The notes under the pieces were generated by a model. That model saw only the letters and a program-made list of their open reading frames with translations. It did no database searches and had not been told where the DNA came from. Of a stretch of DNA of 64,000 nucleotides, positions 44,223 to 63,317 are shown in pieces. Position 1 is the stretch's first letter. Each line of letters begins with the position of its first letter. The stretch is from Candidatus Woesearchaeota archaeon CG10_big_fil_rev_8_21_14_0_10_44_13 (GTDB lineage: Archaea > Nanobdellota > Nanobdellia > Woesearchaeales > UBA12501): contig PCXZ01000032.1 of assembly GCA_002762985.1 (NCBI GenBank), positions 1-64,000 of the forward strand, written 5' to 3'. The position numbers were made by a program, and so were the translations under genes.

Positions 44223-44271
44223 AAAGCATGAATTATATCACTGTGAGATGTAACTGTGAGAAGCAATTAAA

Positions 44272-44912: not shown

Positions 44913-44924
44913 ATTTATAAATAA
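44913..44924 (+). promoter_or_regulatory. TATA box before the 45004 gene
   Basis: ATTTATAAATAA in a 141-bp gap, about 80 nt before the ATG at 45004. It predicts a leader of roughly 55-60 nt. GAGGTG at 44993-44998 is the ribosome-binding site. Confidence 0.55.
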
Positions 44925-45003
44925 AGTAACCTAGATTTACAAAATCATCAGTATTAAAGTCAGGTATTAAAAATCAAAAAAATACAAAAACCGAGGTGCT
45001 AAA

Positions 45004-45270
45004 ATGGCTTTCAAAAAAGGCGATCTTTCTATAAACATAGTGATCATTGCTGTCATAGCCTTGCTTGTGCTTGTCGTGCTCTCCTACATATTCGTAGGCA
45101 AGATCAGCCAGACAAGGAAAGGCATAGACAAATGCGAGAATTCAGGGGCAGTGTGCAAAGGATTCTGCGAGCTGGACGAGAGAAAGCTTGAGAAGGACTG
45201 CAATAATAACGGCAATACAGATTATAATGAAGGAGCTTTGATAGACGGCGTTTGCTGCCTGAAAGTCTGA
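45004..45270 (+). CDS. Short pilin-like protein ending in a CC cysteine module
   Basis: 88 residues. KKGD (4-7) is followed by a hydrophobic helix (9-30) and a small six-Cys head that ends DGVCCLKV. The start is fixed by GAGGTG. The small Cys head recurs, with different sequence but the same end, in the next genes. It is small enough to be a major repeating subunit if the helices pack like archaellins. Confidence 0.78.
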   Translation: MAFKKGDLSINIVIIAVIALLVLVVLSYIFVGKISQTRKGIDKCENSGAVCKGFCELDERKLEKDCNNNGNTDYNEGALIDGVCCLKV

Positions 45271-45343
45271 TTTATGGCAGATATTCCAAATTTTTTATTT
45301 TTATCATTGTTGGCCATCAATCCATATAGATCGAGGTGAATGA

Positions 45344-46129
45344 GTGAATTCTTTTAAGTATAAGGGCATAAAAAATAAGAAAGGCATGGATAAGTTGATG
45401 GAGGTAATCCTTGTTTCAGTGGCCCTGCTCGGGATGATATTCATCATCTGGATCATAACAAGGTCTGATGTGAACAAGGCAGCAGGCATTGTGCCGTGTT
45501 TCTCCCCTACTGAAGAAGCGCACTGCCTGGGGACTGTTGATGATTGCACGAAATCCGGCGGCAACCTGTTCAAGGTTGGCACATGCCCCACAAAAGATAA
45601 CCCTGTCTGCTGCATAGGCGGTTCTGGCAAACCTTCCAGCAGCCCTGCTGTCGCTACAACAAGTCCAGATCAGGCTGCGCCGACAACAGCAACAACGCCT
45701 TCAGAAGCCCCACAACTGAAGGGAACGATGCAATTCTTCTGCAAATGCAAGATTGAGAATGGCTACCTGGTCGGGCCGAACTGGCTCAGTTCAATAGTGA
45801 GTTTTGCCCTCAGTTTCAATAAGATGGACATGGCTGATATTAAGAAAGGCAATACTGACTTCAAGTCTAAAAAGGATGCAGAATATGAGATACAGGCCAG
45901 AGGCACAGATGATGTGAAATACTGCAGGATATCCGTTGTTGGCCAGAATTATGATGCAGAAGGCGCCTGCAGCAAGGATAACGGGCCCAGCGTCAAGGTT
46001 AAATTCGCAAAAGAAGGGGATTATGATGTAAACCTCTTCGGATATGACAAGAAGGGAGGTACAAGGGCAGCGTCTGCTGTTGTTGATATCAAGATTGAGA
46101 GTGCTACGGGCAGCGTGGCCGTATCATAA
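45344..46129 (+). CDS. Pilin-like protein with CC cysteine module and beta domain, GTG start
   Basis: 261 residues. The GTG at 45344 is chosen because GAGGTG (45334-45339) lies 4 nt upstream; the alternative ATG at 45386 lacks one and would remove the KKGM motif. KKGM (12-15) precedes a hydrophobic helix (about 19-39). A Cys module ending NPVCCIGG follows, then a Ser/Thr/Pro-rich linker (about 88-125) that would suit O-glycosylation, and a C-terminal PKD/Ig-like domain (RGTDDVKYCRISVVG to FAKEGDYDVNLFG). Confidence 0.78.
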   Translation: MNSFKYKGIKNKKGMDKLMEVILVSVALLGMIFIIWIITRSDVNKAAGIVPCFSPTEEAHCLGTVDDCTKSGGNLFKVGTCPTKDNPVCCIGGSGKPSSSPAVATTSPDQAAPTTATTPSEAPQLKGTMQFFCKCKIENGYLVGPNWLSSIVSFALSFNKMDMADIKKGNTDFKSKKDAEYEIQARGTDDVKYCRISVVGQNYDAEGACSKDNGPSVKVKFAKEGDYDVNLFGYDKKGGTRAASAVVDIKIESATGSVAVS

Positions 46130-46206
46130 GATAAGATGAAGATATAAAGAGATACCATGATATGATTGGATTATCATGTGATAAAAGATATATCAAAGGT
46201 GAAATC

Positions 46207-46503
46207 ATGGATGGAAAGAAAGGAATGGAGCTTTCATTGAACGTCATCATTGTGGCCATAGTGCTGTTCATAGTGATGATAATACTTGTGGCATTGTTTA
46301 CTGGAAAGATGGGCGGCATACGGAAGTCCCTCAATAAGACCGAATCCCAGTACAGCCAGGACAAATGCCAGATCCCCGGCACAGACAGGGTATGTGTAAT
46401 AACCCAAAGCTCATGCGAGAACAGAGGAGGTTTTGTATATGAAGCCCCGCAAGGAGGCAAATGGTCAGATTGCTATCTTGGCCAGATATGCTGCTCGCAG
46501 TAA
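46207..46503 (+). CDS. Short pilin-like protein ending in CC
   Basis: 98 residues from the ATG at 46207, which follows AAGGTGAAATC. An earlier in-frame Met (46162) would add 15 residues and lacks a ribosome-binding site. KKGM (4-7) precedes a hydrophobic helix (11-31) and a head with six Cys ending GQICCSQ. Same plan as the 45004 product. Confidence 0.77.
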   Translation: MDGKKGMELSLNVIIVAIVLFIVMIILVALFTGKMGGIRKSLNKTESQYSQDKCQIPGTDRVCVITQSSCENRGGFVYEAPQGGKWSDCYLGQICCSQ

Positions 46504-46534
46504 ATGCAGTAAGGGATCGGATGAGGATTAAGCC

Positions 46535-46828
46535 ATGATAAAGAATAAGGAAAATAAGGCGCAAGACAAGGGATTCAGGAACAAGAAAGGGCAGAGCCTG
46601 ACTTTTTTCCTGAAGGTCCTTGCAGTGGCAGCAATAGTTGTCATAATAATCTTCATAACAAGCGATAGCTTCAAGAGAATATTCAAGGCTGAGACTGGCT
46701 GCGAGTCTGACGCTGCATTCGAGAGGAAATGTTCTTTGACGTGCAGTGAAGGCTGGTCTGTAGATAACACAAAGACGTGCAAGAGCCAGGGTGACACAGA
46801 AGTGAAGTGCTGTTACAGGGCAAAATAG
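46535..46828 (+). CDS. Short pilin-like protein ending in CC
   Basis: 97 residues. A 16-residue polar leader precedes KKGQ (17-20), then a hydrophobic helix (24-42) and a head with six Cys ending VKCCYRAK. Same plan as the products of 45004 and 46207. No close sequence identity among the three heads apart from the Cys pattern. Confidence 0.76.
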   Translation: MIKNKENKAQDKGFRNKKGQSLTFFLKVLAVAAIVVIIIFITSDSFKRIFKAETGCESDAAFERKCSLTCSEGWSVDNTKTCKSQGDTEVKCCYRAK

Positions 46829-46898
46829 AAGATGATATGATAAGATCATTCCGATAGGTTGCTCCAGAAAATACAGAAACTGATATCCGAGATCTAAA

Positions 46899-47726
46899 AT
46901 GGGTTCTTTTAGAGATAAAATCCTGAAAAATGGCAAAAAGGCCATGGTGATGAAGTATATAGTCTTTCTTGTGATCGCCCTAATCAGCCTTATCCTCGTT
47001 TTCAGTTTCCTTTACAAGCTATACTCAAAGACAATTGGGTTCAGCGGTGAGAAGAACTGCAGGAATTCCATAGTGCTCCAGGAAACCCTTGCTGATAAGA
47101 TGCCTACAACCAAATACACGAAACCCTGGCCGGCGACATGCAAGACAAAAGACAAGGTCAGTGAAGCAAAGACCGCTGAAGATGCCAAGAAAGACCTGGC
47201 TGAGATGATGTGGTGGTGCTGGTGGATGATGGGGGAAGGGGCGATAAGGCCCTTTGACAAGGATTGGTTCTCCGGAGGGAGGAAATGCTTCGTATGCTAC
47301 ACTGCGCAGTTCCCCTATCTGCAAGGACAGGTCAGCAGGCAGGGTTTCACCTCTTATCTGCGGGAAAAGGGCAAAGAAGGCGCGACCTATTATGATTATC
47401 TGAAATACAGCGAAGATAAGGTGATTGAAAACCCCATGACTGATGATATAGACAAGAAAGGCATTTATGCGATAGTCTATACTTCCCCTGCTGATCCGAC
47501 TTTCAGCCCTATCCTCGGCTGCCTTGGCATTGGCGCTATCGGGGCTTTGGGAGGGGGCATTGTGGCTGTTCCCAGCTATATCGGCTGCCTGGGGGCATCT
47601 GCAGTCGTGCAGGTCGTAGAATCCATGAAAGAGGATCTTGTGTATGTTGCTGATGTGAGCAAAAACAGCGCAAGCTGCTACGGGAGCTGGTACACTGGAG
47701 GGGAGAGGGTCCAAACAACAGAATAA
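46899..47726 (+). CDS. Pilin-like protein with CWWMMGEG motif (copy 1)
   Basis: 275 residues. KKAM (13-16) precedes a hydrophobic helix (19-40). The soluble part has PWPATCKTKD, then MMWWCWWMMGEG, KCFVCYTAQFP, YYDYLKYSEDKVIE and a Gly/Ala-rich hydrophobic segment (about 204-235), which may be membrane-active or buried. The same order occurs in the 48046 gene, so these are paralogues from a tandem duplication. I recognise no named family. The abundant Trp/Met and CxxC-like KCFVC could bind metal or form disulfides. Confidence 0.8.
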   Translation: MGSFRDKILKNGKKAMVMKYIVFLVIALISLILVFSFLYKLYSKTIGFSGEKNCRNSIVLQETLADKMPTTKYTKPWPATCKTKDKVSEAKTAEDAKKDLAEMMWWCWWMMGEGAIRPFDKDWFSGGRKCFVCYTAQFPYLQGQVSRQGFTSYLREKGKEGATYYDYLKYSEDKVIENPMTDDIDKKGIYAIVYTSPADPTFSPILGCLGIGAIGALGGGIVAVPSYIGCLGASAVVQVVESMKEDLVYVADVSKNSASCYGSWYTGGERVQTTE

Positions 47727-47739
47727 TATGGGATAAAGC

Positions 47740-48039
47740 ATGAATAAAGCCATAAAAACAGGATTGTTAAAACCAAAACATTTAAAATCAAGGCTTCTTA
47801 AATACTTAAAAATGGTGAAAAGAGGCAAAAACCAGGTAATAAAGGCATATTCTGCATTCAAAACCTCATTCAAAAAAATGATGGATTCTTCTTCATTTTC
47901 CAGGTCATTTTCCCCGTTTAGGTTTCATTTAAACATAAGAGCCCAGATGGAGAATTCGACAGTCGCGATAATAATCGCGGTAGTGATGATATTCATTGTG
48001 CTGGCATTGCTGATATTGAGGCTAAATGAATTCGCCTGA
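47740..48039 (+). CDS. Small pilin-like protein with unusually long leader
   Basis: 99 residues. A 66-residue very basic Ser/Phe/Lys-rich region comes before RAQM (67-70) and a hydrophobic helix (74-93); almost nothing follows the helix. If processed like a prepilin, the product is essentially just the helix. It sits between the two CWWMMGEG genes (14 bp and 7 bp gaps), so it is probably co-expressed with them. An internal start near the motif is possible. Confidence 0.65.
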   Translation: MNKAIKTGLLKPKHLKSRLLKYLKMVKRGKNQVIKAYSAFKTSFKKMMDSSSFSRSFSPFRFHLNIRAQMENSTVAIIIAVVMIFIVLALLILRLNEFA

Positions 48040-48045
48040 GATACC

Positions 48046-48942
48046 ATGAAGAATAAAAAATCATTCATTGAGTGGGAAGTGATGAAGATAATACTCATAC
48101 TTTTCTCATTCATATTGCTTTTTGCCTTCCTGTACAGGTTTTACTCCAAGTCTACAGAATTTGCCGGCGAGGAAGCCTGCCATGATTCCCTCGTGCTTAC
48201 GCAGACTCTTGCTGAGAAAGTTGCAACTGGCCAATATCTGAAGCCGTGGCCAGCCACGTGCAAGACAAAAGAAGTAGTGAGCAAAGCCACTGAAATTGAC
48301 CAGGCCAAGAAAGAGCTTGCAGAGAGGATGTCGTGGTGCTGGTGGATGATGGGTGAAGGGGTTATAAAGCCTTTTGACAAGGATTTTTTTGCCGGAGGCA
48401 AAAAATGCTATGTATGTTATACTATGCAGTTCCCTTTCCTGAAAGAACCTGTCAGCAGGCAGGATTTCATGTATTACCTGCAGCAGCAGGGAAAGGAAAA
48501 AATGACTTATTATGATTATCTGAAATATGGCGAAGACAAGGTGATAGAGAGTCCTTTGACTGATCCGATAGACAGCAAGAAGATATATGCAGTGGTATAC
48601 ACATCGCCATCTGATTTCACATTCAATTTCATCCTGACATGCCTGAAGCCTTCTTTAGAGGTCGGTGCTGGCGCTGCAACAACCGGTGCAGTTGTTTGCG
48701 GCACTGCAGGGGCAGTTGTGGCGGGTCCGCCAGGCGCTGCAGCAGGAGTATTATTCTGCGGGCTTACAGGGGCTGTCTGGGGTTCAATAGGCACGTATGC
48801 TTTATGCGCTCCGGCAAGCATAGTCACGCAGATCATTGAAAAGACCAAAGAGGACCTAGTGTATGTGACTGATGTCAACAGGGGGCAGGCAGGCTGCGAA
48901 GGCACATGGTACAAAGGTGTAGGAGAGGTCCAGACAGCATAG
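48046..48942 (+). CDS. Pilin-like protein with CWWMMGEG motif (copy 2)
   Basis: 298 residues, paralogue of the 46899 product. Shared blocks in the same order are the hydrophobic helix (about 13-32), PWPATCKTKE, MSWCWWMMGEG, PFDKDFFAGGKKCYVCY, QFPFLKEPVSRQDF, YYDYLKYGEDKVIE and IYAVVYTSPSD. The C-terminal hydrophobic Gly/Ala-rich segment is longer and more repetitive (about 200-255) than in copy 1. The leader has KKSF in place of KKAM. Function unknown. Confidence 0.8.
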   Translation: MKNKKSFIEWEVMKIILILFSFILLFAFLYRFYSKSTEFAGEEACHDSLVLTQTLAEKVATGQYLKPWPATCKTKEVVSKATEIDQAKKELAERMSWCWWMMGEGVIKPFDKDFFAGGKKCYVCYTMQFPFLKEPVSRQDFMYYLQQQGKEKMTYYDYLKYGEDKVIESPLTDPIDSKKIYAVVYTSPSDFTFNFILTCLKPSLEVGAGAATTGAVVCGTAGAVVAGPPGAAAGVLFCGLTGAVWGSIGTYALCAPASIVTQIIEKTKEDLVYVTDVNRGQAGCEGTWYKGVGEVQTA

Positions 48943-48990
48943 ATTTATAATAAATGAGGTCATAGAGCAATATCATTAAAAGGTGAGATC

Positions 48991-49290
48991 ATGAAAACTC
49001 TTATCAAAAAAGATGCCAGGAAGACGGTTTCAGATAACCCCCAATTTATGAGTCCCTTTTTTGGGAGAAGCCTTGGTGATATAAGGGTGGCTCTAAAAAC
49101 AATGATGCTCTCAATCCCTCATGCAAAAAAAGGGGAGGAGATGGTTTCTCCGAGGCTGCTCGAATACATCATAGGTGCATTAGGGATGATTGCGATAATA
49201 GTCTTGATATATATGGTCTTCAAACCTGAAAATGCGGCCCAAGTGGCATCAAGCTGCGTCACGCAGTATATAGGGCCTAAATTCACTTAA
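48991..49290 (+). CDS. Small pilin-like protein with long leader
   Basis: 99 residues. AAGGTGAG upstream supports the ATG at 48991. A 45-residue polar leader is followed by KKGE (46-49) and a hydrophobic helix (58-77), with a short tail holding one Cys. It follows copy 2 of the CWWMMGEG gene just as the 47740 gene follows copy 1, so a two-gene unit appears to have been duplicated. Confidence 0.66.
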   Translation: MKTLIKKDARKTVSDNPQFMSPFFGRSLGDIRVALKTMMLSIPHAKKGEEMVSPRLLEYIIGALGMIAIIVLIYMVFKPENAAQVASSCVTQYIGPKFT

Positions 49291-49366
49291 CATGCGGGCA
49301 TATATCAATAGCCCATATCCCAAAAAATTTATCGAAAAAAGGCATTCAGACATTCAAGGTGAGCAC

Positions 49367-50188
49367 ATGAAAAAAAAATCGATGGCGATCTCAACAACAT
49401 TCTACATGATAATAATGCTTGCTCTGCTGCTTGTGCTCACATTCATCTATTTCGGCGGCACAGGCTTCTTCCAGAAGATATACAAACTGACAGACAAGCT
49501 GGGCCTGACGAAGCTTGCAAAGGATGTCGAGGAAAAAGAGAAAAACATAACTGAAAGCAGGGAAAAATTAAGCCCCGAGGAACAGAGGGCTGAAGAGCAG
49601 ATAAAATCCGTCGTCGATAAGATCGTCCAGGGCATACAATCCTGCCTTGCCGGACCAAACTGCGTATGCAGGATAGACGGCCAGCAGATACCTGAAGGAT
49701 ATGTCATAAGGTTCCTGAATGCCCCTGCTGAAAAAACGGTCTATGTAAGCGTATTCAGGTTCAAGGAGAGGGGCTGGTACCAGGCTAATTATGACGAGAA
49801 TTACCAGGGCCAGACAGGAGTGCATTTTGTCTATGGCACAAATTACAATCTGGATAATACCCAATCATGCATTGTCATAGACCTTGAAGAGCACTATCTT
49901 GACGGGGATGATGATGTGGACCATATACAGTTAAGGGATCCTGAAGCAGGCATGATACAGCTTTTCTGGGAAGGAGACAGGTACAGGGCGACTGAATCAG
50001 TCAGTCCTGGCGTGGTATATAATAGTGAGAGGGATTATGATGTGTATGGCGCTGGCAGCTACAGCCTCAACTCGATATACAAGGCAAAGGATGGAAGATT
50101 CTGCTTTTTCGCAGAAAGATTCGTCGATGAAGACACTGATCTTGTAGACCGCATAGTCTGCGGCAAGAGCGAAGAGCAGCCCAGTTAG
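49367..50188 (+). CDS. Pilin-like anchored protein with coiled-coil stalk
   Basis: 273 residues from the ATG at 49367 (AAGGTGAG upstream); an earlier Met at 49292 has no such signal. KKSM (3-6) precedes a hydrophobic helix (10-30). A charged helical region follows (about 45-95, KDVEEKEKNITESREKLSPE), probably a stalk, then a beta-rich head with three or four Cys (CLAGPNCVCRIDGQQIP, FCFFAERF). The domain is not one I recognise. Confidence 0.76.
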   Translation: MKKKSMAISTTFYMIIMLALLLVLTFIYFGGTGFFQKIYKLTDKLGLTKLAKDVEEKEKNITESREKLSPEEQRAEEQIKSVVDKIVQGIQSCLAGPNCVCRIDGQQIPEGYVIRFLNAPAEKTVYVSVFRFKERGWYQANYDENYQGQTGVHFVYGTNYNLDNTQSCIVIDLEEHYLDGDDDVDHIQLRDPEAGMIQLFWEGDRYRATESVSPGVVYNSERDYDVYGAGSYSLNSIYKAKDGRFCFFAERFVDEDTDLVDRIVCGKSEEQPS

Positions 50189-50199
50189 GAGGTGGAATA

Positions 50200-50610
50200 A
50201 TGACAGAAGCATATAGAAAAAATAAAGGAAGATTCAAAGAGAATAAGAAGGCCCAAAGTTCGACTACTTTCCTGAAAGTCCTGCTCGAGGCAGTTGTAGT
50301 CCTTGTTGTAATAGGGGTATTTTTGTATGGGATGTACCTTAAATCAGCAAAGAGAAGCATTAATCCATTATTAGACAAAATAGGCACAGAAATCGAGAAA
50401 GTGGATCCTCTCGCACAGAGCGAAGATGATTATGACCAGGATGGGGTGCCTAATAATGCAGATAAATGCTGCAGCTGCGACAGGATAGGCAGGACAGGAG
50501 TCATAAATGACCCGGCGCTGGATCCCACAAAAACAAGGATGGGTTGCGCAGAAGGACAGCAGCCAAGCAGCTGCCCGACATCGCCTTGCCAGACTGTTTT
50601 GGTCTCATGA
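50200..50610 (+). CDS. Short pilin-like protein with Ca-motif and Cys-rich head
   Basis: 136 residues. GGAGGTGG, 8 nt before the ATG, supports the start. KKAQ (16-19) precedes a hydrophobic helix (25-45). The head has a thrombospondin-type-3-like Ca motif (DDYDQDGVPNNADKC) and seven Cys. This links it to the Ca-binding repeats of the giant proteins. Confidence 0.77.
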   Translation: MTEAYRKNKGRFKENKKAQSSTTFLKVLLEAVVVLVVIGVFLYGMYLKSAKRSINPLLDKIGTEIEKVDPLAQSEDDYDQDGVPNNADKCCSCDRIGRTGVINDPALDPTKTRMGCAEGQQPSSCPTSPCQTVLVS

Positions 50611-50676
50611 CCGCAGGTTTGTGAGTATATAAGACAGTATGAGACAGGATATTAAATAAGATACCAAAAAAGAAAA

Positions 50677-51612
50677 ATGAAGAAAAAAGCGCTTATAGGC
50701 TTCGTAGTCGTGCTTGTGCTGACGCTTACCTTGGCAGGGCTCACTATGTACAAGGTTGCAGAGATATTCGGCCTGCATCAGACCCAGAAGGCCATGGATT
50801 CCTTCTATAGATTTGTATATAAGGTGAATGACAGCTCTGTCAGGCCTGTAGGGACAAAGGAATCAACTGCATTATACGTCGATGAGAAGAGCACCATACT
50901 GGGTTTCAGCAAGAATTCCAAAGAGATTTTCATCCCAACGGGCATAAACCATCACAGCCCCCGGCCCCCCGAATGCATTGCGGGAAATGCGTGCATATGC
51001 CTCTGCAGGGATTATGACTGGAGGATAGACTTCAGTAAATATGAGTATTATTTCGGCATGGAATTCCTGCCGATAAGGTGCAGGGAAAGCTTCATCTGCG
51101 AAAATTTTCAAGATTTTGATTTCCCCCAGAAGATGACAAAAGAGGATTTCGGGATGGATATAGAGATGGAAGGGGGATTCATAATCGCAAGGAACTTCAT
51201 GCTCGGAGACCAGAAGATAGAGGCAAGATTGACAGGAATCTACATAACAAATGAAGCGCCCGGCCTTGTGAGCGTTTCATACAATGTGGAAGGGGTCTCA
51301 AAGGAAACCCTGCAGAGGCAGAACGAGAGGGATGAGACCGGAAAAATGATGTGGGAGGCGAATACTGCTTTCACGAACAAGCAATGGGATACAGCCATAC
51401 AGAAATATGATGAGATCATAAGCAAAGGTTATCTTAGCTATCTTTCAGAAGGCTCCAAGGAGCAGGTATACCTATTCAGGGCAATGTGCTATTACAACAA
51501 GCATGACAGGGAGAATACATTAGAGGCAATGGATGAAGCCTTGAACCACACAGAAGATGACACATTAAAGAAGATGATAAGGGAGAAAATGGCTGAAGCA
51601 GAGACATGGTAA
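50677..51612 (+). CDS. Membrane-anchored protein with C-terminal TPR-like repeats
   Basis: 311 residues. One N-terminal hydrophobic helix (about 5-24) is followed by a domain with paired Cys (CIAGNACICLC, RCRESFICENF). The C-terminal 90 residues are helical, with TPR-like spacing (MWEANTAFTNKQWDTAIQKY and YLFRAMCYYNKHDRENTLEA). TPRs usually hold protein partners, so this may be an assembly or scaffold component. It is the last gene before the 51781 regulator, which lies after a 168-bp AT-rich gap. Confidence 0.76.
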   Translation: MKKKALIGFVVVLVLTLTLAGLTMYKVAEIFGLHQTQKAMDSFYRFVYKVNDSSVRPVGTKESTALYVDEKSTILGFSKNSKEIFIPTGINHHSPRPPECIAGNACICLCRDYDWRIDFSKYEYYFGMEFLPIRCRESFICENFQDFDFPQKMTKEDFGMDIEMEGGFIIARNFMLGDQKIEARLTGIYITNEAPGLVSVSYNVEGVSKETLQRQNERDETGKMMWEANTAFTNKQWDTAIQKYDEIISKGYLSYLSEGSKEQVYLFRAMCYYNKHDRENTLEAMDEALNHTEDDTLKKMIREKMAEAETW

Positions 51613-51692: not shown

Positions 51693-51782
51693 TATAGAAC
51701 AATTGTATTTTTAATAACATAACTTACATTTTATATATAAAATAGTAAACTATATATAGAACAAATGTTTTATATATAAAAT
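51693..51782 (+). promoter_or_regulatory. Repeat-rich promoter/operator of the 51781 regulator
   Basis: Two kinds of site alternate. TATAGAACAA(T/A)TGT is at 51693 and 51755, 62 bp apart. TTTTATATATAAAAT is at 51729-51743 and again at 51768-51782, 39 bp apart, the second copy including the first two bases of the ATG. The first copy is part of a 16-bp perfect palindrome and could be the TATA box. The second would place a bound protein over the start codon. This looks like autorepression. Confidence 0.55.
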
Positions 51783-52194
51783 GCTTGAAAAGTATGCCTT
51801 GTGGAAGGTCATTGAAGTTCTTGTAAAAGGGGAAGAGGAATATTCTGTAAGGCAGATGTCAAGGACTGCAGGCATAGGCGCAGGGACTGCAAAAGCGTGC
51901 CTTGATTACATGCATGAAAACGGGATTATAAAGAAGAAAGTGATAGGCAATATCTACCAATATTCCCTGGATCTTGCGAATCCTGCTGCAAGGCAGATAA
52001 AGAATGCGTATTTCGCAAAGGAATTGCTCCAGAAGGCCGGCCCTAAGACATGGATCTGCTCCAATGAGAAAGAGGTTGTCGTTGTCACGACAATGGAATC
52101 GTTGAAGATTGAGGGGATAAGAATCATAAAAACAAATGAGCATGATTTCGAAAGCCTGAAAAAAAGCTATCTCGACATAATCACGATAAGATGA
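51781..52194 (+). CDS. Winged-helix transcriptional regulator
   Basis: 137 residues with an N-terminal winged helix (about 5-62: YSVRQMSRTAGIGAGTAKAC, NGIIKKKVIGNIYQYSL) and a short alpha/beta C-terminal domain (EVVVVTTMESL). The wHTH parallels that of the 28665 product, but this protein is shorter. The ATG is flush with an AT-rich repeat, so the leader is very short. It probably represses itself and the following wall-hydrolase genes. Confidence 0.8.
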   Translation: MLEKYALWKVIEVLVKGEEEYSVRQMSRTAGIGAGTAKACLDYMHENGIIKKKVIGNIYQYSLDLANPAARQIKNAYFAKELLQKAGPKTWICSNEKEVVVVTTMESLKIEGIRIIKTNEHDFESLKKSYLDIITIR

Positions 52195-53570: not shown

Positions 53571-54407
53571 ATGCAGCAAAAGATGCGACAAAAAAACATG
53601 AGATTTGTGAAAATCTGCATATTCATGGTAATTGCGGCCCTGCCTTCGCTAGCCAATGCAGCGATATATGGGGATGAAGCGTTTGTAGATGGCTTCGTGA
53701 CTGACCAGAGGCTTGTTGATTCTGTTGATAGTTTCCTGGAAACGACAAACACGACTCTTGCGCTTGCTGTGCTAAACAACACGGAGGATATTGCTGCTGA
53801 TGCTGAATTTTACTATAACCTGAGCAAGGCTGACATCACAATAGTGTATGATTTCGGCGATAATAAGATAGCGATAGCGAAGCCGAGGGAGAGGGAGGTA
53901 TTGAGCGACCAGAAGATAAACCAGCTGCTTGACGGCAGGCAGAGCCAAAAGACATTCATTGTCGACGCAGGTGATGCGAACTTATACCTCCTGAATCTTG
54001 TTGAAGACATCAAGACAGAGCTGAGATCCGGCGAGAAGATATATGGTGTGTGTTCCATAATAAAAGACGGCTACTGCAATGAGAGCTGTTATGACGACCT
54101 TGACTGCGATTGCGGCAACGGCATATGCGAGTACCATGAGAATTACATAACCTGCCAGAAAGACTGCAAGAAGACGTCTGAGTATGGCTGTGCGATATTG
54201 AGCGACAATTACTGCGATAAGAACTGCCCATTGACGGACATAGACTGCAGTTTCGGGAGCCTCAGTGAGAAGACATTCGATATCGCAAAAAAGAAAAGGA
54301 CGACTGCCGTAGTGCTGCAGGCTGTTATCGGGGCCCTGTTGTTCATGCTTGTCGTCATACTGATATATGTGCTTGAAAAAAATAAAGGATTCAAAAAACC
54401 GCAATGA
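53571..54407 (+). CDS. Signal peptide/TM protein with Cys-rich juxtamembrane region
   Basis: 278 residues. Signal peptide (about 10-31), an alpha/beta domain resembling in outline TPM-like extracellular domains (about 40-150), then a Cys-rich part with CYDDLDCDCGNGIC and CPLTDIDC repeats, one transmembrane helix (about 247-268) and a short basic tail. The Cx(n)DxDC repeats resemble those in the 57624 product, so these two may be partners. No enzyme motif seen. Confidence 0.78.
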   Translation: MQQKMRQKNMRFVKICIFMVIAALPSLANAAIYGDEAFVDGFVTDQRLVDSVDSFLETTNTTLALAVLNNTEDIAADAEFYYNLSKADITIVYDFGDNKIAIAKPREREVLSDQKINQLLDGRQSQKTFIVDAGDANLYLLNLVEDIKTELRSGEKIYGVCSIIKDGYCNESCYDDLDCDCGNGICEYHENYITCQKDCKKTSEYGCAILSDNYCDKNCPLTDIDCSFGSLSEKTFDIAKKKRTTAVVLQAVIGALLFMLVVILIYVLEKNKGFKKPQ

Positions 54408-54414
54408 TGGATGG

Positions 54415-54921
54415 ATGAAATATATGAGAAGTGTATGGAAATCAAAAAGAGGGGAGGGAGAGGAAAGGACGCAAGAGGCACCAAACTACTCGATATATTT
54501 CCTGATAGTCGCGATCATAGTCCCATTATTCGCTATCTTCCTTGTCATTGCGACATCCTCATACAGTGTTGAAACTACAAGCATACTCGGAAACCTTGAA
54601 AGCGCCGTGGTAGGGTTCAGGATATTGAATTCGCCAGAATGCTTCGTCTATCAGGATGAGGCTACAAAAAGGACATACCCCCACACGATAGAACTGAAGA
54701 AATGCACGCCTGAAAGGCTTGAAGCCTGCATGGGCAATATGTCGGGAGTATGCTTCAAGTCCCAGATAAAAGTCGGAGGGGAGGTAATGAAAGAGCTGCA
54801 GAGCAGGAATTACAGGAGGCCATCTGAGATAAAGGTGAGCGTTTGGCCGATAAAGGCCAAGGATGAGGGCGAAGAGAGGCAGGGATTCATGATCATAAGC
54901 ACGAGCAAGCAATGCGGTTGA
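54415..54921 (+). CDS. Anchored pilin-like protein
   Basis: 168 residues from the ATG at 54415; a GTG at 54367 would overlap the preceding gene by 41 nt. A basic head (with KRGE at 11-14) leads to a hydrophobic helix (about 25-48), then a small domain with four Cys. It is not recognised. The stop overlaps the next gene's start by 10 nt, so translation is probably coupled. Confidence 0.72.
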   Translation: MKYMRSVWKSKRGEGEERTQEAPNYSIYFLIVAIIVPLFAIFLVIATSSYSVETTSILGNLESAVVGFRILNSPECFVYQDEATKRTYPHTIELKKCTPERLEACMGNMSGVCFKSQIKVGGEVMKELQSRNYRRPSEIKVSVWPIKAKDEGEERQGFMIISTSKQCG

Positions 54922-55514
54922 GCCCCCACTGGAATTTGGCTGAAAAGATGGCTGAAAAGAATTTGATTGAAAAGCTGAAGATGGACATAAGGAAATCAAA
55001 AAAAGGAGTAGTGCACACATGGTTTGATTATGTATTCGCGATAGTCGGAGGCATAGTAATATTCGTGATAATATTCTTTGTGACTACATCGGGCACAGCA
55101 AGGGTCGAGAATGAGATAAAGGCCCAGGAATTCGATATAAGGTCTGATGAGACGCTTGTGTTTTACCTCTCAACTTGCCTCAGCAAAGGCCAGATCAATG
55201 ATCTCTTGTTCAATAATGAGAGGTTTAAGGTAGCAGAACAGCTTGCAGGCTCAAAAACGACATTTGCCGACCTGATAATTGCCATAGGCGAGAATGATGA
55301 TGAGGATTACAAGGAGATATTGAGGGCCCAGACAGAATACCTGCTTAATACGACTCTTGGGAATGAGAAATGGAAGCTTGATATAAGATATCCTGGTGGG
55401 GAGGAACTTTCGTTCGGGGGATTGAAGGGCGAGACAAGGGTTTTTGAGCTAAGGCTGCCTTCAACAGGCTATCAGATGATAAATGTCAAATTGACCGCAA
55501 AAAAGGAGAAATGA
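54912..55514 (+). CDS. Anchored pilin-like protein (KKGV type)
   Basis: 200 residues (an internal Met at 54948 is an alternative start). SKKGV (29-33) precedes a hydrophobic helix (about 38-58) and a helical/beta soluble domain of unknown type (DETLVFYLSTCLSKGQINDL). It overlaps the previous gene by 10 nt and precedes the wall-hydrolase fusion gene by 17 bp. Confidence 0.74.
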   Translation: MRLSPHWNLAEKMAEKNLIEKLKMDIRKSKKGVVHTWFDYVFAIVGGIVIFVIIFFVTTSGTARVENEIKAQEFDIRSDETLVFYLSTCLSKGQINDLLFNNERFKVAEQLAGSKTTFADLIIAIGENDDEDYKEILRAQTEYLLNTTLGNEKWKLDIRYPGGEELSFGGLKGETRVFELRLPSTGYQMINVKLTAKKEK

Positions 55515-55530: not shown

Positions 55531-57639
55531 ATGGCCCAGATAAGATATTTCAGGAGCATTAGGAAAAACTGCATGAGGAAGGACAGGAGAGGGGCAATGC
55601 TGCTCTATCTCGCAACAATAGGTCTCCTTATAGCATCATTCACGTTCCTTACGCTGAAAGTCATGGAGAAGCCTGCAAAATGGGAGCCCAAGTATGTCGG
55701 TGAGCACCAGCTTGCATTGCTTAAGACTGCAATAAATGCAGATAAATTCCTACTGTTCATAGACCAGGCCTCGAAGCCGACTGCGATGCAGTCCATCTAT
55801 AACCTGGCTCAGAAAGGGGGTTTCCCTGCCGGCTCAGAATGCGGGCAGTACATTGGCTACCAGAAATGGAGGACTTTCTCGAAGGACAGTAATGAGATGA
55901 AAAACTGCATCCCTGATGAAAGCACGATAAAATATGATATATCGTATGCCTTTAATAACGAGCTCTATAAATACCTCAATGTTTACTGGGGCTACCAGAA
56001 ACAGAATGCCATGGCTGTTAATGCCGGATCAGGGGATCTGGCAGGAAAAACGGTCATATTGGACCCCGGCCATGGAGAAGGGTATAGCGGTCCATCAGGC
56101 GCAAGCGGCGAGCAGGAAGCCACCCATGCGATCTCTGCGAAACTCAAGATGCTGCTTGAGCAGAAAGGGGCCATAGTCTATGAAACACCTTCAGCTTATG
56201 GGATGACTGAGAGGGCAAATTTTGCGAATGAGAAGAAGGGAGATATATTGGTTTCTATACATTTTAATGGTGTTTCTGATGTGAATACTGCCGGCCTTGA
56301 GGCTTTCTATGGCGCTGAGAACAGCGGGACAGCAGACGGCAGCCCTGAAAAAGATAAGGTTCTTTGCGAGAATATCATCCCAAAAGTGAAGGATGTAATC
56401 AGCAGCGAGCTTAGGGGAGGAGGCATAAAGCCTGACACTGGCACTGACGTCGGCTCGCTGTCAAACCTGAGGAAGACAAACATGCCCGCATGCCTCATAG
56501 AGATGGAATTCATATCCGCGAAAAAAAGCATAAAATTCAACAACAAGGAATATGGCAATTACAAGGATCTTTTCCGGAGCGAAGATTACCAGAATGCTGC
56601 GGCAAATGCACTGAAAGAAGGCATAATAAATTATTTCAGTGCTGTCGGAAACCTGCAGCCAGAGCCAAAAAAACCTGAACCCTCCTTGGTGGCAAGCAGC
56701 GGGATGGAACAGACAACGACATCTGCGATTCAGGGCCTTATGAAAACAGAGAATGATGAGTATATCACGGGGACGCCTGTCATGGTGCCTTATGCTGCCC
56801 CTCAGCAGGCCATCAATCTGCCATTGGGCGTTTTAGGCAAGATGCCTCCTGACAACTATGAGGTGAATCTTGAGCAGAAGGACAAGCTGAAGATAATGGG
56901 GATTGCCAAAGACAAGGCAGAATTCGACATAGTATTGGGTGAGATAAAGAGAAAAAGCGTAGCAAAGATGATTTCAGAGGGTGTTGAAGGCGGGATAAGG
57001 AATCTCGTTGATATAGGGGGATGCAGCATAGATTCGCCTCAGACAGACAGCCAGTCTATAGGCAATGCCAATGTCGGGAGGCTTGAGAATGGTGTGAAGG
57101 TTCCAGATGAAGGGACATATTATCTTATCGATCCTCCTGCAAGGGGCAGAGGAAGCAATTATGCCACTAATGAGCTTTACATAGGCCTGCAGAAGACAGG
57201 ATGCGTTCTTATGAAGAATTACAATGTAAAGCTGATATTCAGGGATATGAGCAAACAAGGAGGCGGAAAGCTTGGGAAACATCTATCGCATACAAGCGGA
57301 AGGGATGTTGACATGGGTTTTGTATGTATTAAGGATGAAAAAAGGTTCCCCTGCTACAGGAATGTCGTCCAAGGCGGCGGAGTAGTGCCTGAATTTGACC
57401 CTGCGGGGAACTGGCTGCTCATGAAGACTGTGTTTGATACAGTTGAAGTCGATCATGTCTTCCTTAACAGATATATAATAAAATTAATCATGGACTGGGC
57501 AGAGGCGAATGAGCCTGACAAAATTGCTGTTGAAAAGGTAAAAAAAATACTTGAGAGGGATGAGCTTGCAAATCACGTAACTCATTATCATCTCAGGATA
57601 AAATGCCCTGAAGGAGACGCACAATGCAGGATAGACTAA
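55531..57639 (+). CDS. Amidase_3 plus MepA (peptidase M74) fusion, murein-hydrolase-like
   Basis: 702 residues. RRGA (19-22) precedes a hydrophobic helix (24-44), then a linker and an Amidase_3 domain (about 172-370): ILDPGHGEGYSG (H181), E196, SIHFNG (H244) and CLIEMEF (E324). A Pro/Ser-rich linker leads to a C-terminal domain (about 510-700) with the M74 MepA signature: GKHLSHTSGRDVDM (H584, H587, D594) and THYHLRIKCP (H685, H687). In bacteria the first cleaves MurNAc-L-Ala and the second cross-linking peptide bonds. I see no pseudomurein-specific features. It overlaps the next gene by 16 nt. Confidence 0.86.
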   Translation: MAQIRYFRSIRKNCMRKDRRGAMLLYLATIGLLIASFTFLTLKVMEKPAKWEPKYVGEHQLALLKTAINADKFLLFIDQASKPTAMQSIYNLAQKGGFPAGSECGQYIGYQKWRTFSKDSNEMKNCIPDESTIKYDISYAFNNELYKYLNVYWGYQKQNAMAVNAGSGDLAGKTVILDPGHGEGYSGPSGASGEQEATHAISAKLKMLLEQKGAIVYETPSAYGMTERANFANEKKGDILVSIHFNGVSDVNTAGLEAFYGAENSGTADGSPEKDKVLCENIIPKVKDVISSELRGGGIKPDTGTDVGSLSNLRKTNMPACLIEMEFISAKKSIKFNNKEYGNYKDLFRSEDYQNAAANALKEGIINYFSAVGNLQPEPKKPEPSLVASSGMEQTTTSAIQGLMKTENDEYITGTPVMVPYAAPQQAINLPLGVLGKMPPDNYEVNLEQKDKLKIMGIAKDKAEFDIVLGEIKRKSVAKMISEGVEGGIRNLVDIGGCSIDSPQTDSQSIGNANVGRLENGVKVPDEGTYYLIDPPARGRGSNYATNELYIGLQKTGCVLMKNYNVKLIFRDMSKQGGGKLGKHLSHTSGRDVDMGFVCIKDEKRFPCYRNVVQGGGVVPEFDPAGNWLLMKTVFDTVEVDHVFLNRYIIKLIMDWAEANEPDKIAVEKVKKILERDELANHVTHYHLRIKCPEGDAQCRID

Positions 57640-58976
57640 GATTTGTGAAAAAAATATGGATTTTAGCGGTTGTGTTATTGCTAGCCTGCGCAATAGCCTC
57701 CGCATATGAGGTCACTGAAGATGAGAAGATGATGCTCTTTTTCATAGATGACAAGATGGAACTGAATGATGTGAAAGTCATAAGAGACAACGCTTTCTAC
57801 AGGCAGGCAAGCGGATACGAAAGCATGTTTGACATCCTTGACGATATCCCTGAGAATGGAAGGTATATCGAGCTTCTCGATAAGGATGGCGAAGTTGTCT
57901 ATGATTTCAAGTTTTTCATGGATTTCGGTCTTCCTTACAATGAGGAAGTGAGCAAAATAAGGGTTTACAATGGCCTAACTAAGGACAGCCCTGTGCTGAT
58001 TGAGAAGGACATAAGCTTCTGCAATCACAACAATGTCTGCGAGCCATGCGAGGGCATCGGTTGCAGCATAATGGAAAGCTCTGTCACCTGCAGCGACTGC
58101 AGGACAGGAAGCAAGGACAGCTATTGCGACCTTAAAAAAGATGGTGTGTGCGACCCGGACTGCAATAACATCGACATGGACTGTCCTGGATGCACAGACG
58201 GAAAATGCTATTATGATGATTCGATGGACGAGGTGAACATGTGCCCCGGCTTCGGAGGGGAGGTCTGCAGGAGCATGGAGGAATGCGCAGGAGAGATTAC
58301 AGGCGGCAATGATGATGGTTTCTGCTGCATTGGCAATTGCGTTGATCCGACTGTTGAAGAAGAGTATATCCCTCAAGAGCCCGGGACGCCAGAGGAGATC
58401 GCTTTTACAGGGGGTTCTGATTACCAGGGCCAGGATATCGAGGAGATAAACGATCCTGTCCGGCTGTTCAATATGAATTATAACAGCTCGATTCCCGTTG
58501 AGGATGAATCGAAGAAGATCCTCTGCAGCAATGTCGGGAAATCCGTATGCGGGATGTTTGAGAGATGCATCAATGGGCAGAATGTCTACTCAGACGATGA
58601 AGGGGGCAACTGCTGCACAGGAGATTGTGCTCCTTTGAGCGATGATGAGTTCAATAAGGCTTACAAGGATGAATTCGGCGAGGATTACAGCAAGGCTGCA
58701 GGAATCAAGCCAACAACCACTGCAGAAGAAGGGATTGCTCCTGCCCTGGAGGCTGAGCAGATAAGCCAATGGTGGTTCCTGCTGGCGATAATCCCTCTTG
58801 TCGTGATAATACTCATTTATGATGCCGAAAGGAAGAAAAGCGAGGAAAAAAAGAGAAGGGTAGATTATGAATATGGCTATTATAAGAATTATGGCTATAA
58901 TGACGACCAGATAAAACAGATACTCGTCCAGAGGGGATGGAAAAAGAAGGACATAAGGAAGGTAATAAAGAAGTAG
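57624..58976 (+). CDS. Signal peptide/TM protein with Cys-rich repeats
   Basis: 450 residues. Signal peptide (1-27), an N-terminal alpha/beta domain, Cys-rich segments (near 132-245 and 295-335, including CDLKKDGVCDPDC, DDGFCCIGNC and GGNCCTGDC), an acidic linker, a transmembrane helix (about 384-402) and a basic C-terminal tail that ends in a small helical region (YNDDQIKQILVQRGWKKKDI), perhaps a UBA-like three-helix fold. The start lies within the end of the preceding gene (16 nt overlap), so they are coupled. Confidence 0.78.
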   Translation: MQDRLRFVKKIWILAVVLLLACAIASAYEVTEDEKMMLFFIDDKMELNDVKVIRDNAFYRQASGYESMFDILDDIPENGRYIELLDKDGEVVYDFKFFMDFGLPYNEEVSKIRVYNGLTKDSPVLIEKDISFCNHNNVCEPCEGIGCSIMESSVTCSDCRTGSKDSYCDLKKDGVCDPDCNNIDMDCPGCTDGKCYYDDSMDEVNMCPGFGGEVCRSMEECAGEITGGNDDGFCCIGNCVDPTVEEEYIPQEPGTPEEIAFTGGSDYQGQDIEEINDPVRLFNMNYNSSIPVEDESKKILCSNVGKSVCGMFERCINGQNVYSDDEGGNCCTGDCAPLSDDEFNKAYKDEFGEDYSKAAGIKPTTTAEEGIAPALEAEQISQWWFLLAIIPLVVIILIYDAERKKSEEKKRRVDYEYGYYKNYGYNDDQIKQILVQRGWKKKDIRKVIKK

Positions 58977-59006: not shown

Positions 59007-62000
59007 ATGACTTCAAAAGGCAGATCAAGGATAATGTGCAGGTTTTTGCTAGCTTTAGTCCTTTTTTCATTGGTATCTTCGCCTGTTCTCGCTGCTGAAA
59101 CAACGCAGGACAAGGGTGTGCTGCAGCAGCCGGATGATAAAAACCAGCAAAGCCAGCAGGCGCCTGCGAGTCAGCAATCCGGCTTCAGGTTCATAGTCCT
59201 GAGCGATGCGAACCCGAGCTATGGCACAGAAGGATTGAATTCCAAATTCCCTGATGACCTTAAGGGCATACCGGGGCTGAATCCTGTATTTGTGATACAT
59301 GCTGGGGATATGATAGGGGGAGGTAATCCTTATAGCATGGAAAAATATGATAAGATGTGGGTTCCGTTCTTCGAAGCAATAAAAGCCATAACTGCTGCGA
59401 GGATACCTTATCTGCCCTGCCCCGGCAATCATGATGCCGGCTTTGGTGTCAAGACTGCAAAAGAGTCTTACGGCAAGAATTGGCTTGCGAACAAGCCATC
59501 TGTCTCAACGAGCGGAAACTATCCTTATTATTATTCGTTCGATTACAGCAACAATCATTTCATAATACTTGACAGCTCGAACATAAAGCTTGGCTCAACG
59601 CAGATACAATGGCTTTCGGATGATCTTGCGAATGCAAAAAACAAGGATAACACATTTGTGATTCTGCATATACCTTTCATGTCATCAGGCATGCTCCATC
59701 CTGAGACTGCTGATAAGTCTGCCCTTGATATCATATCCAATGCCGGCGTAAAATACGTGTTTGCCGCCCATAACCATGTCTATCGCGAGCATGATTACCA
59801 GAATGTGAAACAGATAACTATAGGGAGTGCGGCAGACGACCCGAGGGGAGAGAAAGATAATATGTTTGTTGTTGTTGATGTCATGGGCAAGGATGATGTT
59901 AAGATTTACCCTGCAGGCCTCAAGTCAGGATTCAAGAATACTATTGATGGACAGCCAATACCCTCTGCGCCTGCAGGCTCTGTGCCGTCATTTGACCCTG
60001 CTTCAGTCATCGGCACAAACTGCGTGCCAGGACAGAACGATTTCTCTTCCTTGCTTTCAGGTGAGGGCATTTCATATGAAAGCTATCCTTACAAAGGCGG
60101 GATTTTCCATTCAATGACCATAGATCCTAGTAGGTATGATGTCGTGCTGATAAATGCAAAGAAAGCCACAGGAAAATCTTCAGCGACTCTTGCCGAGATA
60201 CTAAGGAACACCCCCGGGGCGATAGCCGCCATCAATGGGGGATTTTTTGAAGGGGGGGGAAAGCCTACAAATTCAATTGTAGTTGATAATGAACTGATAA
60301 ATGGTGTTTACGACAAGTTCCACACTACGTTCGTGAACGAAAACGGAAAATATAAAGTGATCACTCTTTCGCAGCTTCTTTCCTACAGCCCTGAAAAGAT
60401 AAGAAACGAAGTGAAATCTGCGGTCACTGCCTTAGGTCTTGTCTCGAATGGGAATAATGTCGGCAAATCAGGCGACAGGGCGCCGCGTTCTGGAGTATGC
60501 ATAACAAAGGACGGCCTTATCAAGTTTTTGGCGAGCAATGGCATACAAAAAGGCAGCAGTTTAGTAGGAGGATATGCCTCAATAGGGGAATTCGCCCAGG
60601 AAGCAATAGACAGGCATGGGTGCTTAGACGGAGTAAATCTTGATGGAGGAGGGTCTACATCAGTAGAATACCACATAAATGGCAAAGATGTGTCTTTACT
60701 TGGGGAGAGAAATGCTGCACTCTGCAGGGGATCAGACCAAGAATTCCCATGCCAAAGGCCTGTTGGTGATGCTTTGGTTATTTTGCCTAAACAGGGCATG
60801 AAAGGGCCTGCTACAAAATCCTTGCCTAATATTGCAGGCTCTGCGCCCGCTGCAACAATTACTTCGGCTTTCACTGCTGTTGATGATATAACTGGGATGG
60901 CTGCTGCACAGCCTTCCTCAGTATATTCTGCAGACCTGTCAGGAAGCCTGAATACAATAACGATAAGCTCCCCTGATTATTTACAGATAAGAAGCGCTTA
61001 TGAGCTGACAGGACAGGAACTGGCAACACCAAAAACCGTGCTTGACAAGGCGAATGAGAAAGGGGGCCAGATTGTAGCTGTGACTAACGGTGCTTTCTTC
61101 GGCTACAGCAATCTGAATGGGAAAGACAGGGGAAGCACTAATGCCGGGCCGACATGTCTCTATATAGAGAATGGAAGGCAATTCTTCCCTTATGAATATC
61201 CTGATGACAAGAAGAATCCTGATTTCCTGTGCAAAAACCGCAATGAGTTCTATATAACAAATAAGAATGAGGCAGGCATATTGCCTTACGGCCAGTTCGA
61301 AAGCAAATTCTCGGGCAACAATTATGCAGAGATAAAATATGCGATCCAGGGCGTCAATATACTGTATGATAATAATATAGTAACAGAATACCCTAAAGAT
61401 ATAGAGTTCACTTTCCATGGCGGGAAGAAAGAGAGGAATGGGATATGCATAACAAATGACAACAAGATAATCCTGTTCGTGAATACCGACAAGATAGGGC
61501 TGATAGATCTTGCCACAAAGCTCAAGAACGAGCTGGGTTGCAGGCATGCGATAAACACTGATGGTGGCGCGACATCCTCGATGTATGTCAAAAACGAGGA
61601 TTATTATTTCAAAAGCTTCTCTGATGACACAGCCCAGAATAAGGTCTGCAGCACAGTCAAATCGGCAAGCGATTTCGTCAGACAGTCGAATGGAAGGACG
61701 CAGGGGCATGGCTGTGCATTGAATTTCTTCCTTGTTTCAGAATCAAAAACTGCAGTCACTGGAAGCCCTTTAATCAGTTTTGCGGCTCCGACAGAGCAGA
61801 TAGGATGCATCTGCCAGGATAGCATAGAAAGCTCTGTCATAGCCGTGCCCTCATCAAACACTGCTGTCAGCCAGGGGCAGTCTGCTGTCACTGGCGCTGC
61901 TGCAGAAACTAAAGACAAGCCGGATATAGGGTATGATTTCTCCGGCATAGACAGGGGTTACCAGGGATTCGGGGCAAAAAAAGACCTCTCAAAGATATCC

Positions 62001-63317
62001 AAATTCGAGCCATATATACAGGAAGCTAGCCAGAAATTCGGTGTTCCTGCTGAATTCATAAAAGGGGTAATAATGACCGAATCAGATGGGAAAACCAAGC
62101 CCTCTTCGACAAAAGCAGGAGGAAAATTATGCGACAGCTCAGGCATGTGCTTATGCAATTCAGCAAGCTATTGCGGGCTCATGCAGACCGGCCATTTCAG
62201 CGATAAATGCGACTCCTCTTATGAATGCAATTGGGATAATTTCCAGAAAGGTGATGAAGGGGCAAGAGACCAGATATTTTCAGGGACTAATTTCATAAAA
62301 ACATTGATGTCTGACAAGAGGTTGGGCTCTCCTGAAAGCCCGGATTATTTCTACTGGATCGCCGCAGGATATAATGGTGGGGCAGGATCCTCTGCCATGA
62401 TAAGGGAATCAGCTGCTGAGAGGCTTGGGATCCCTCCGGAAAGGGTGCAGTGGAAAGACGTGACAATAGAGGATTCAAAAAAGAACCAGGAGAAAAATTT
62501 CCCAACCCGCCCAGGCAAGACAGAAGAGATATTCTACTATGCTTCAAAAGTGATGTCCATTGTGCAGGCGGCTGCCGGAGGCATGAGCCAGGCCATGCAG
62601 CAGACAATCGCCCAGAAATGCCAATACAGCCAGGTCTATGATTATACAAGCATAGGCAAATACTACATAAACCCCTCTTTTACAGTCGATGTGGATTATA
62701 ACATTAATCATTACAAGCTCATCTCAGATGCAGTCAAGGGCCTCATCTCTGAATGCAGCAAAAAGGACTCTGACGACCTGAGAGAATGCATAAAGGAAGG
62801 AGTGGATGACGCTGGCGGGATTGATGAAGGGAATCTGAACCTGTACAATGGGCCGTGCGATTATGCAGAGAATATGATGAGCGATTTTGCAGAATGGACT
62901 GATGCGTGCCTGGAATCAAGCAGCGACAACTGCATATGTGAGATCCCTCTTGAGTATGAATATGAAAAAGAGAACACTGATGAGGAAGTCACGATAGAGG
63001 CTTCTGGCTCTGGCACGATACAGATAACCGGCGCAGGGCAGACCCAGTCTTTGACCGGATCTGTTGTCGGGAGCAAGAAGATAATGACAAAAAGCGGCGC
63101 AGAATCGCATTATGCAAAGAAAACAGGCAGGATCATAGAATTTGTAGACAGCTCAGGCGGGGCCAAATGCAGGATGGATAAAAGGACCTATAAATTCTGC
63201 GCAGAGACAAAGAACCTCTATATGATATATGATGAAAAACAGAAAAAACTGGCCCTCATGCCCATACAGTACAAGTTTGCTGTCGACTTCTCTGAGCAGG
63301 CCGCTGCAAGCCCATAA
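59007..63317 (+). CDS. Secreted metallophosphoesterase, two NAGPA-like domains and lytic-transglycosylase-like domain
   Basis: 1436 residues. Signal peptide (about 1-30). Calcineurin-like phosphoesterase (60-300): SDANPSYG (D67), HAGD (D101), GNHD (N141), H221, AHNH (255-257). Two phosphodiester-glycosidase (NAGPA/DUF2233) domains: about 355-595 (AAINGGFF, RAPRSGVCI, NLDGGGSTS) and about 640-910 (VTNGAFFG, RNGICIT, NTDGGATSS). SLT-type lytic transglycosylase (about 1000-1185): MTESDGKT (E1025), YCGLMQTG, AAGYNGGAG. The last 235 residues are Cys-containing and unidentified. No C-terminal anchor. Together these would act on phosphodiester-linked sugars and a murein-type glycan. The fusion is unusual. 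Confidence 0.85.
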   Translation: MTSKGRSRIMCRFLLALVLFSLVSSPVLAAETTQDKGVLQQPDDKNQQSQQAPASQQSGFRFIVLSDANPSYGTEGLNSKFPDDLKGIPGLNPVFVIHAGDMIGGGNPYSMEKYDKMWVPFFEAIKAITAARIPYLPCPGNHDAGFGVKTAKESYGKNWLANKPSVSTSGNYPYYYSFDYSNNHFIILDSSNIKLGSTQIQWLSDDLANAKNKDNTFVILHIPFMSSGMLHPETADKSALDIISNAGVKYVFAAHNHVYREHDYQNVKQITIGSAADDPRGEKDNMFVVVDVMGKDDVKIYPAGLKSGFKNTIDGQPIPSAPAGSVPSFDPASVIGTNCVPGQNDFSSLLSGEGISYESYPYKGGIFHSMTIDPSRYDVVLINAKKATGKSSATLAEILRNTPGAIAAINGGFFEGGGKPTNSIVVDNELINGVYDKFHTTFVNENGKYKVITLSQLLSYSPEKIRNEVKSAVTALGLVSNGNNVGKSGDRAPRSGVCITKDGLIKFLASNGIQKGSSLVGGYASIGEFAQEAIDRHGCLDGVNLDGGGSTSVEYHINGKDVSLLGERNAALCRGSDQEFPCQRPVGDALVILPKQGMKGPATKSLPNIAGSAPAATITSAFTAVDDITGMAAAQPSSVYSADLSGSLNTITISSPDYLQIRSAYELTGQELATPKTVLDKANEKGGQIVAVTNGAFFGYSNLNGKDRGSTNAGPTCLYIENGRQFFPYEYPDDKKNPDFLCKNRNEFYITNKNEAGILPYGQFESKFSGNNYAEIKYAIQGVNILYDNNIVTEYPKDIEFTFHGGKKERNGICITNDNKIILFVNTDKIGLIDLATKLKNELGCRHAINTDGGATSSMYVKNEDYYFKSFSDDTAQNKVCSTVKSASDFVRQSNGRTQGHGCALNFFLVSESKTAVTGSPLISFAAPTEQIGCICQDSIESSVIAVPSSNTAVSQGQSAVTGAAAETKDKPDIGYDFSGIDRGYQGFGAKKDLSKISKFEPYIQEASQKFGVPAEFIKGVIMTESDGKTKPSSTKAGGKLCDSSGMCLCNSASYCGLMQTGHFSDKCDSSYECNWDNFQKGDEGARDQIFSGTNFIKTLMSDKRLGSPESPDYFYWIAAGYNGGAGSSAMIRESAAERLGIPPERVQWKDVTIEDSKKNQEKNFPTRPGKTEEIFYYASKVMSIVQAAAGGMSQAMQQTIAQKCQYSQVYDYTSIGKYYINPSFTVDVDYNINHYKLISDAVKGLISECSKKDSDDLRECIKEGVDDAGGIDEGNLNLYNGPCDYAENMMSDFAEWTDACLESSSDNCICEIPLEYEYEKENTDEEVTIEASGSGTIQITGAGQTQSLTGSVVGSKKIMTKSGAESHYAKKTGRIIEFVDSSGGAKCRMDKRTYKFCAETKNLYMIYDEKQKKLALMPIQYKFAVDFSEQAAASP

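Follow-up and report, generated by a model that had tools for sequence, protein, structure and literature searches.

A single woesearchaeote gene encodes protein A, a membrane-anchored fusion of two peptidoglycan-hydrolase domains, Amidase_3 and Peptidase_M74. We propose, with a probability of roughly 65%, that protein A belongs to a surface apparatus that would cut bacterial peptidoglycan at cell contact and whose cutting modules are interchangeable. The gene lies within a stretch of 64,000 nucleotides (here called the window), which is part of an 82.6-kb contig in a 1.5-Mb genome that is 98.5% complete.

Protein A and its membrane anchor

The reading frame of protein A has no internal stop across its 702 residues. 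The protein and its parts are as follows:

55531..57639, + strand: protein A, 702 aa, anchored Amidase_3-Peptidase_M74 fusion (ORF and Pfam scan)
55531..56001, + strand: conserved anchor domain of protein A, with a transmembrane segment at residues 21-45, long helices and conserved C104, G105 and C126
56053..56628, + strand: Amidase_3 domain of protein A, with H181, E194 (probable), H244 and E324 (Pfam, alignments)
57055..57630, + strand: Peptidase_M74 (MepA-type LAS) domain of protein A, with H584, H587, D594, H685 and H687

An Amidase_3-MepA fusion had been predicted from the sequence, with the proposal that it be checked against the profiles PF01520 and PF03411, and both domains exceed the curated Pfam cut-offs (27 bits for Amidase_3 and 25 bits for Peptidase_M74). 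Residues 175-366 match Amidase_3 (PF01520) with 89.8 bits (E 2.8e-25), and residues 509-700 match Peptidase_M74 (PF03411) with 47.6 bits (E 2.1e-12). No peptidoglycan-binding domain was found in protein A by the Pfam scan. A six-frame search located a single copy of the M74 domain in the window's genome.

The original prediction also held that both active sites look intact. Every ligand position is indeed kept, with H181, H244, E324, H584, H587, D594, H685 and H687 all in place, but the second amidase ligand needs correction from E196. Although pairwise alignments are split on this ligand, one pointing to E194 and another to E196, across 39 aligned amidase domains the invariant acidic residue falls on E194, two residues away from E196, and the second zinc ligand is probably E194. 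The five M74 residues (H584, H587, D594, H685 and H687) are unchanged in 13 of 13 aligned archaeal M74 domains.

Structure models were made of the anchor domain and the M74 domain, each folded separately. The M74 model (pLDDT 89.4) has the LAS fold as its predicted fold, and its top Foldseek matches are the E. coli MepA structures 1U10 and 1TZP (E 4e-11 to 2e-10, TM 0.74-0.75), which cover an active and an inactive form. Protein A does not reach the NCBIfam MepA equivalog NF006947 (48.7 bits against a cut-off of 272), so its M74 domain is a relative of MepA and not MepA itself.

Membrane anchoring, likewise anticipated, agrees with the one N-terminal hydrophobic helix at residues 21-45. This is the only hydrophobic segment of protein A; K-D-R-R-G stands just before it, and by its sequence it is a predicted signal-anchor. 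The original prediction called the N-terminus prepilin-like, and with regard to a type IV prepilin (class III signal, pilin fold) a basic motif ([KR][KR][AGSTN]) was seen inside the first 60 residues of 97 of 104 relatives. Since the helices of the anchor domain are also predicted with confidence, protein A is most likely seated in the membrane with both Amidase_3 and M74 outside, an outward topology that we infer from these two features. Comparison of the anchor-domain model with the PDB gave no convincing fold match (best Foldseek E 2.7). The VIA top match of the model, a ribosome-biogenesis chain with Z 7.2, was rejected because that score is in the range that unrelated helical models reach.

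Host genome and gene row

The archaeal host named in the original prediction is supported by the contig itself, which carries genes for topoisomerase VI, RadB, uS2, an RPA-like OB-fold protein, RadA and a TBP-like protein on both sides. For the adjacent RPA-like gene, nearly all relatives carry annotations as Woesearchaeota, Nanoarchaeota or simply archaea. The GC content of the protein A gene (0.44-0.47) is that of its surroundings. A protein search of named genomes with protein A returned no match. A viral origin was considered and rejected, since the PHROG matches are generic endolysins only, found via the amidase, and the surroundings are archaeal. Elsewhere in the window, positions 7782-7900 hold a tRNA match over 119 bases, which is longer than a normal tRNA and therefore probably contains an intron.

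Whether this archaeon makes peptidoglycan bears directly on the role of protein A, and a search for Mur ligases and MraY had been suggested for that reason. In the window's genome, 98.5% complete, no match was found to Mur_ligase_M (PF08245), PBP transpeptidase (PF00905) or FtsW/RodA (PF01098), all of which matched in bacterial controls. One PF00953 (Glycos_transf_4) protein is present, which is also true of M. jannaschii and Sulfolobus, used as controls. This MraY-superfamily member of the window's genome falls far under the relevant cut-offs (69 bits against 450 for archaeal MraY, 54.5 against 192 for MraY and 39.8 against 326 for WecA). Within the families tested (the Mur ligase central domain, PBP transpeptidase, FtsW/RodA and the MraY superfamily), the archaeon appears unable to make peptidoglycan. 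A nearly complete member of the same family (genome G005, loci L035 and L034) gave matches to a PBP-type transpeptidase (72 bits) and to Mur_ligase_M (42 bits).

Protein A stands in a row of genes on the same strand:

42642..51612, + strand: run of small single-TM proteins, similar at their N termini to the genes that precede A in relatives (by inspection)
51781..52194, + strand: winged-helix-like regulator that opens the row (sequence inspection), with a similar place in loci L019 and L020
52278..53513, + strand: protein B, anchored, with a second Amidase_3 domain in which H206, E220, H270 and E340 are present (Pfam)
54367..54921, + strand: protein E, small and anchored, a conserved neighbour on the upstream side
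54912..55514, + strand: protein F, small and anchored, conserved directly upstream of A
57624..58976, + strand: protein G, with a signal peptide, a Cys-rich domain and a C-terminal TM segment, kept in the five closest operons
59007..63317, + strand: protein C, 1436 aa, with a metallophosphoesterase domain, two NAGPA (phosphodiester glycosidase) domains and an SLT-like segment (Pfam)

The Amidase_3 domain of protein B exceeds the Pfam cut-off, and H206, E220, H270 and E340 are its candidate active-site residues. The five closest operons have a degenerate protein B; in other genomes, several Amidase_3 matches stand in the place of B, some 1.4-1.9 kb ahead of A. In protein C the metallophosphoesterase and NAGPA domains are above cut-off, and the SLT-like segment, at 14.8 bits against a cut-off of 21.3, retains E1025 and a GLMQ motif. 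The second Amidase_3 gene, the SLT-like domain of C, the group-wide anchor and the conserved row were not part of the original prediction.

The order B-E-F-A-G-C, with an RPA-like gene nearby, is repeated in five genomes of one other family. Between the anchor and the M74 domain, these five have a capsule-type domain (G208), an esterase-like segment (three genomes, by eye) or nothing (G160). More widely, 38 of the 45 loci read have adjacent E and F genes. Over its final ~220 residues, protein C is similar to the C-terminal half of A relatives elsewhere (best E 1e-15), and in several genomes this region forms a separate gene beside a short A. An anchor-cutter-framework protein is likely divided between A and C in the lineage of the window.

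Ahead of the small anchored genes, the window contains three very large exported or anchored proteins (29327-42599; 1134, 2058 and 1136 aa), and similar large genes occupy the same place in loci L136, L138 and L139. In the stretches read by eye upstream of the row, no ATPase or secretion motor was recognised, so we have not labelled the row a secretion system or pilus.

Diversity of cutting modules on the anchor

At E up to 0.01, a profile built on the anchor (roughly residues 1-150) has matches in 223 of the group's 371 genomes, usually within a conserved gene row; for the more complete genomes, the figure is 163 of 243. For comparison, M74 occurs in 14 genomes and Amidase_3 in 33, and among the matches listed only the window's genome has both within one ORF. 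The peptidoglycan-cutting domains borne by anchor relatives comprise SLT, M23, M15/VanY, NlpC/P60, Amidase_2, M74 and lysozyme types. Above the Pfam cut-off, some such family was found in 28 of the 45 relatives read (SLT 8, M23 8, M74 5, M15/VanY 3, NlpC/P60 3, Amidase_2 1), and three further relatives have a match below it. In roughly one in three of the 45, no cutting domain was recognised, and several have anchor and framework only, so cutting is not obligatory for the anchor family.

A second set of relatives (n = 48), reached through the neighbouring RPA-like gene and cleared of duplicates, shows SLT in seven, VanY and M15 in five each, Amidase_2 and M23 in three each, 3D in two and phage lysozyme in one. 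Among 116 other ORFs of the same stretches, used as a control, Amidase_3 (in four) was the sole cutting family among the 25 commonest families, and every other cutting family could occur in at most two. Catalytic motifs were seen in most M23, NlpC and SLT modules, with exceptions such as those of L102 and L121. Because the loci were picked by the strength of their match to the anchor or neighbour profile and are related to one another, these proportions are no population estimates and the diversity of modules is to be read as a pattern rather than a rate.

Individual loci add variety. One NlpC/P60 relative additionally bears a VgrG3-like C-terminal domain, the anchor-family protein at L112:8637-12179 has a TPM domain alongside SLT, and some relatives carry esterase-like or phosphatase domains in place of cutters. 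In genome G006, of the same family as the window, the M74 domain is off the anchor protein, within an ORF of ~2500 aa (L031:12297-19826) and downstream of a metallophosphoesterase-like segment. One contig labelled Candidatus Aminicenantes bacterium (L206) holds an archaeal RPA-like gene and an anchor-family protein, and is probably mislabelled or from a mixed bin.

Proposed function, alternatives and known systems

Enzymes of the Amidase_3 and M74 families free stem peptides and open cross-links, respectively. In the proposed apparatus, the N-terminal helix would hold protein A at the woesearchaeote surface, where the Amidase_3 domain could act on the MurNAc-L-Ala bond and the M74 domain could sever peptide cross-links, and B and C could contribute amidase and transglycosylase action. 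Together, A, B, E, F, G and C would form an envelope apparatus that opens bacterial walls on contact, whether to feed, to parasitise or to kill. The anchor would stay constant throughout the group and the cutting module would be swapped, probably in keeping with the wall of the partner. Direct results are the domains and their conserved residues, the M74 fold, the anchor segment, the gene row, the diversity of modules and the absence of key synthesis families; from them we infer the enzyme activity, the substrate, contact and the purpose of swapping. We count against this proposal that the Pfam scan found no binding domain in A, that a sizeable share of relatives show no recognised cutter, that B is degenerate in five operons and that the anchor fold is uninformative.

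The original prediction had given equal weight to attack on bacteria, scavenging and remodelling of an own layer. Anchoring, gene neighbourhood and the swapping of one hydrolase type for another speak more for an attack on the walls of bacteria at contact than for remodelling of an own layer. Housekeeping, in which the domains remodel the cell's own murein-like layer or mainly aid assembly of the apparatus, would fit a gene row that is kept across the group and copies that have no enzyme domain at all; given a genome with no Mur ligase, transpeptidase or SEDS match, and swapped-in domains that are mostly murein-cutting types, we consider it very unlikely. Scavenging, in which loose pieces of wall or dead bacteria would be digested as a source of sugars, amino acids and phosphate with no contact with living cells, is an unlikely reading that still carries some weight. 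The metallophosphoesterase and NAGPA domains of protein C fit a stepwise breakdown, as do the relatives in which esterase-like or phosphatase domains replace cutters. Scavenging enzymes, however, are often released, whereas anchoring would restrict the reach of protein A, and the anchor and gene row stay constant while the cutting domain changes.

A bacterial contaminant or a recent stray transfer might be suspected, since both enzyme families are known mainly from bacteria, but archaeal informational genes share the contig, the gene order recurs in other archaeal genomes and the GC content is uniform, leaving this explanation with next to no probability. It also seems quite unlikely that protein A serves chiefly as a weapon against bacterial competitors, the role proposed for secreted archaeal hydrolases. 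Peptidoglycan hydrolases of Halogranum salarium do kill a bacterium, but their kind has a patchy, plasmid-enriched distribution (PMC12352652), whereas the present row is chromosomal and group-wide, and an anchored protein could not diffuse. Killing overlaps with the contact apparatus, and sequence alone does not separate the two.

A wider reading, which we hold tentatively and at somewhat less than even odds, is that the contact apparatus is conserved and spread over Woesearchaeota and related orders, with the outer module of its anchored component repeatedly replaced by unrelated peptidoglycan hydrolases to match the walls of bacterial hosts. Hosts are known for only a minority of DPANN archaea, and the well-studied hosts are archaea. 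If the wider reading is true, much of the DPANN archaea would have bacteria as regular partners. The recurrence of unrelated wall-cutting enzymes on a single conserved anchor points to bacterial partners and can be tested domain by domain. The type of module might predict the wall chemistry of the partner, and the anchor could serve as a marker for more such systems and possibly for new lytic enzymes.

Parts of this picture are already published, namely transglycosylase domains in Woesearchaeota and Pacearchaeota and archaeal hydrolases that kill bacteria. In Castelle et al. (2021, PMC8204110), fam00969 (module 98) comprises large murein-like lytic transglycosylase proteins of Woesearchaeota and Pacearchaeota, which, like protein A, are widespread extracellular murein-cutting proteins of these archaea proposed to act against bacterial walls. 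The passages on fam00969 name only a transglycosylase domain, whereas the anchor family has many unrelated hydrolases and a conserved row; any distinction between fam00969/module 98 and protein A or C is provisional. Murein transglycosylase domains in the same two groups, with bacterial hosts suggested, also appear in PMC10936187. The vampiristic Woesearchaeota of Vigneron et al. (2022, PMC9723730) share with protein A a predicted attack on bacterial walls, but their enzyme is a GH23 transglycosylase only, and the term amidase is absent from that paper.

The bacteria-killing peptidoglycan hydrolases of Strock et al. (2025, PMC12352652) are, like protein A, archaeal and aimed at bacterial walls, with Nanoarchaeota prominent. 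Their modular enzymes, however, combine a catalytic with a wall-binding domain, and protein A, which has no such binding domain by Pfam, would probably have been missed by that survey. One third of their homologs have a secretion signal peptide, and an anchored form within a conserved row is described for none of them. In the open-licence literature we found no description of the Amidase_3-M74 fusion, of the module-swapping anchor family or of the gene row, and the fusion and the swapping of modules on a conserved anchor look new there.

Among known structures, Cwp6 (5J72), 4RN7 and CwlV (1JWQ) have the Amidase_3 domain and its active-site motifs in common with protein A, but these are bacterial autolysins whose chains have no M74 domain. 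E. coli MepA (PDB 1U10, 1TZP) shares the M74/LAS fold and the H-H-D-H-H residues, although it is a stand-alone enzyme that acts on its producer's own wall and is only ~20% identical to the M74 domain of protein A.
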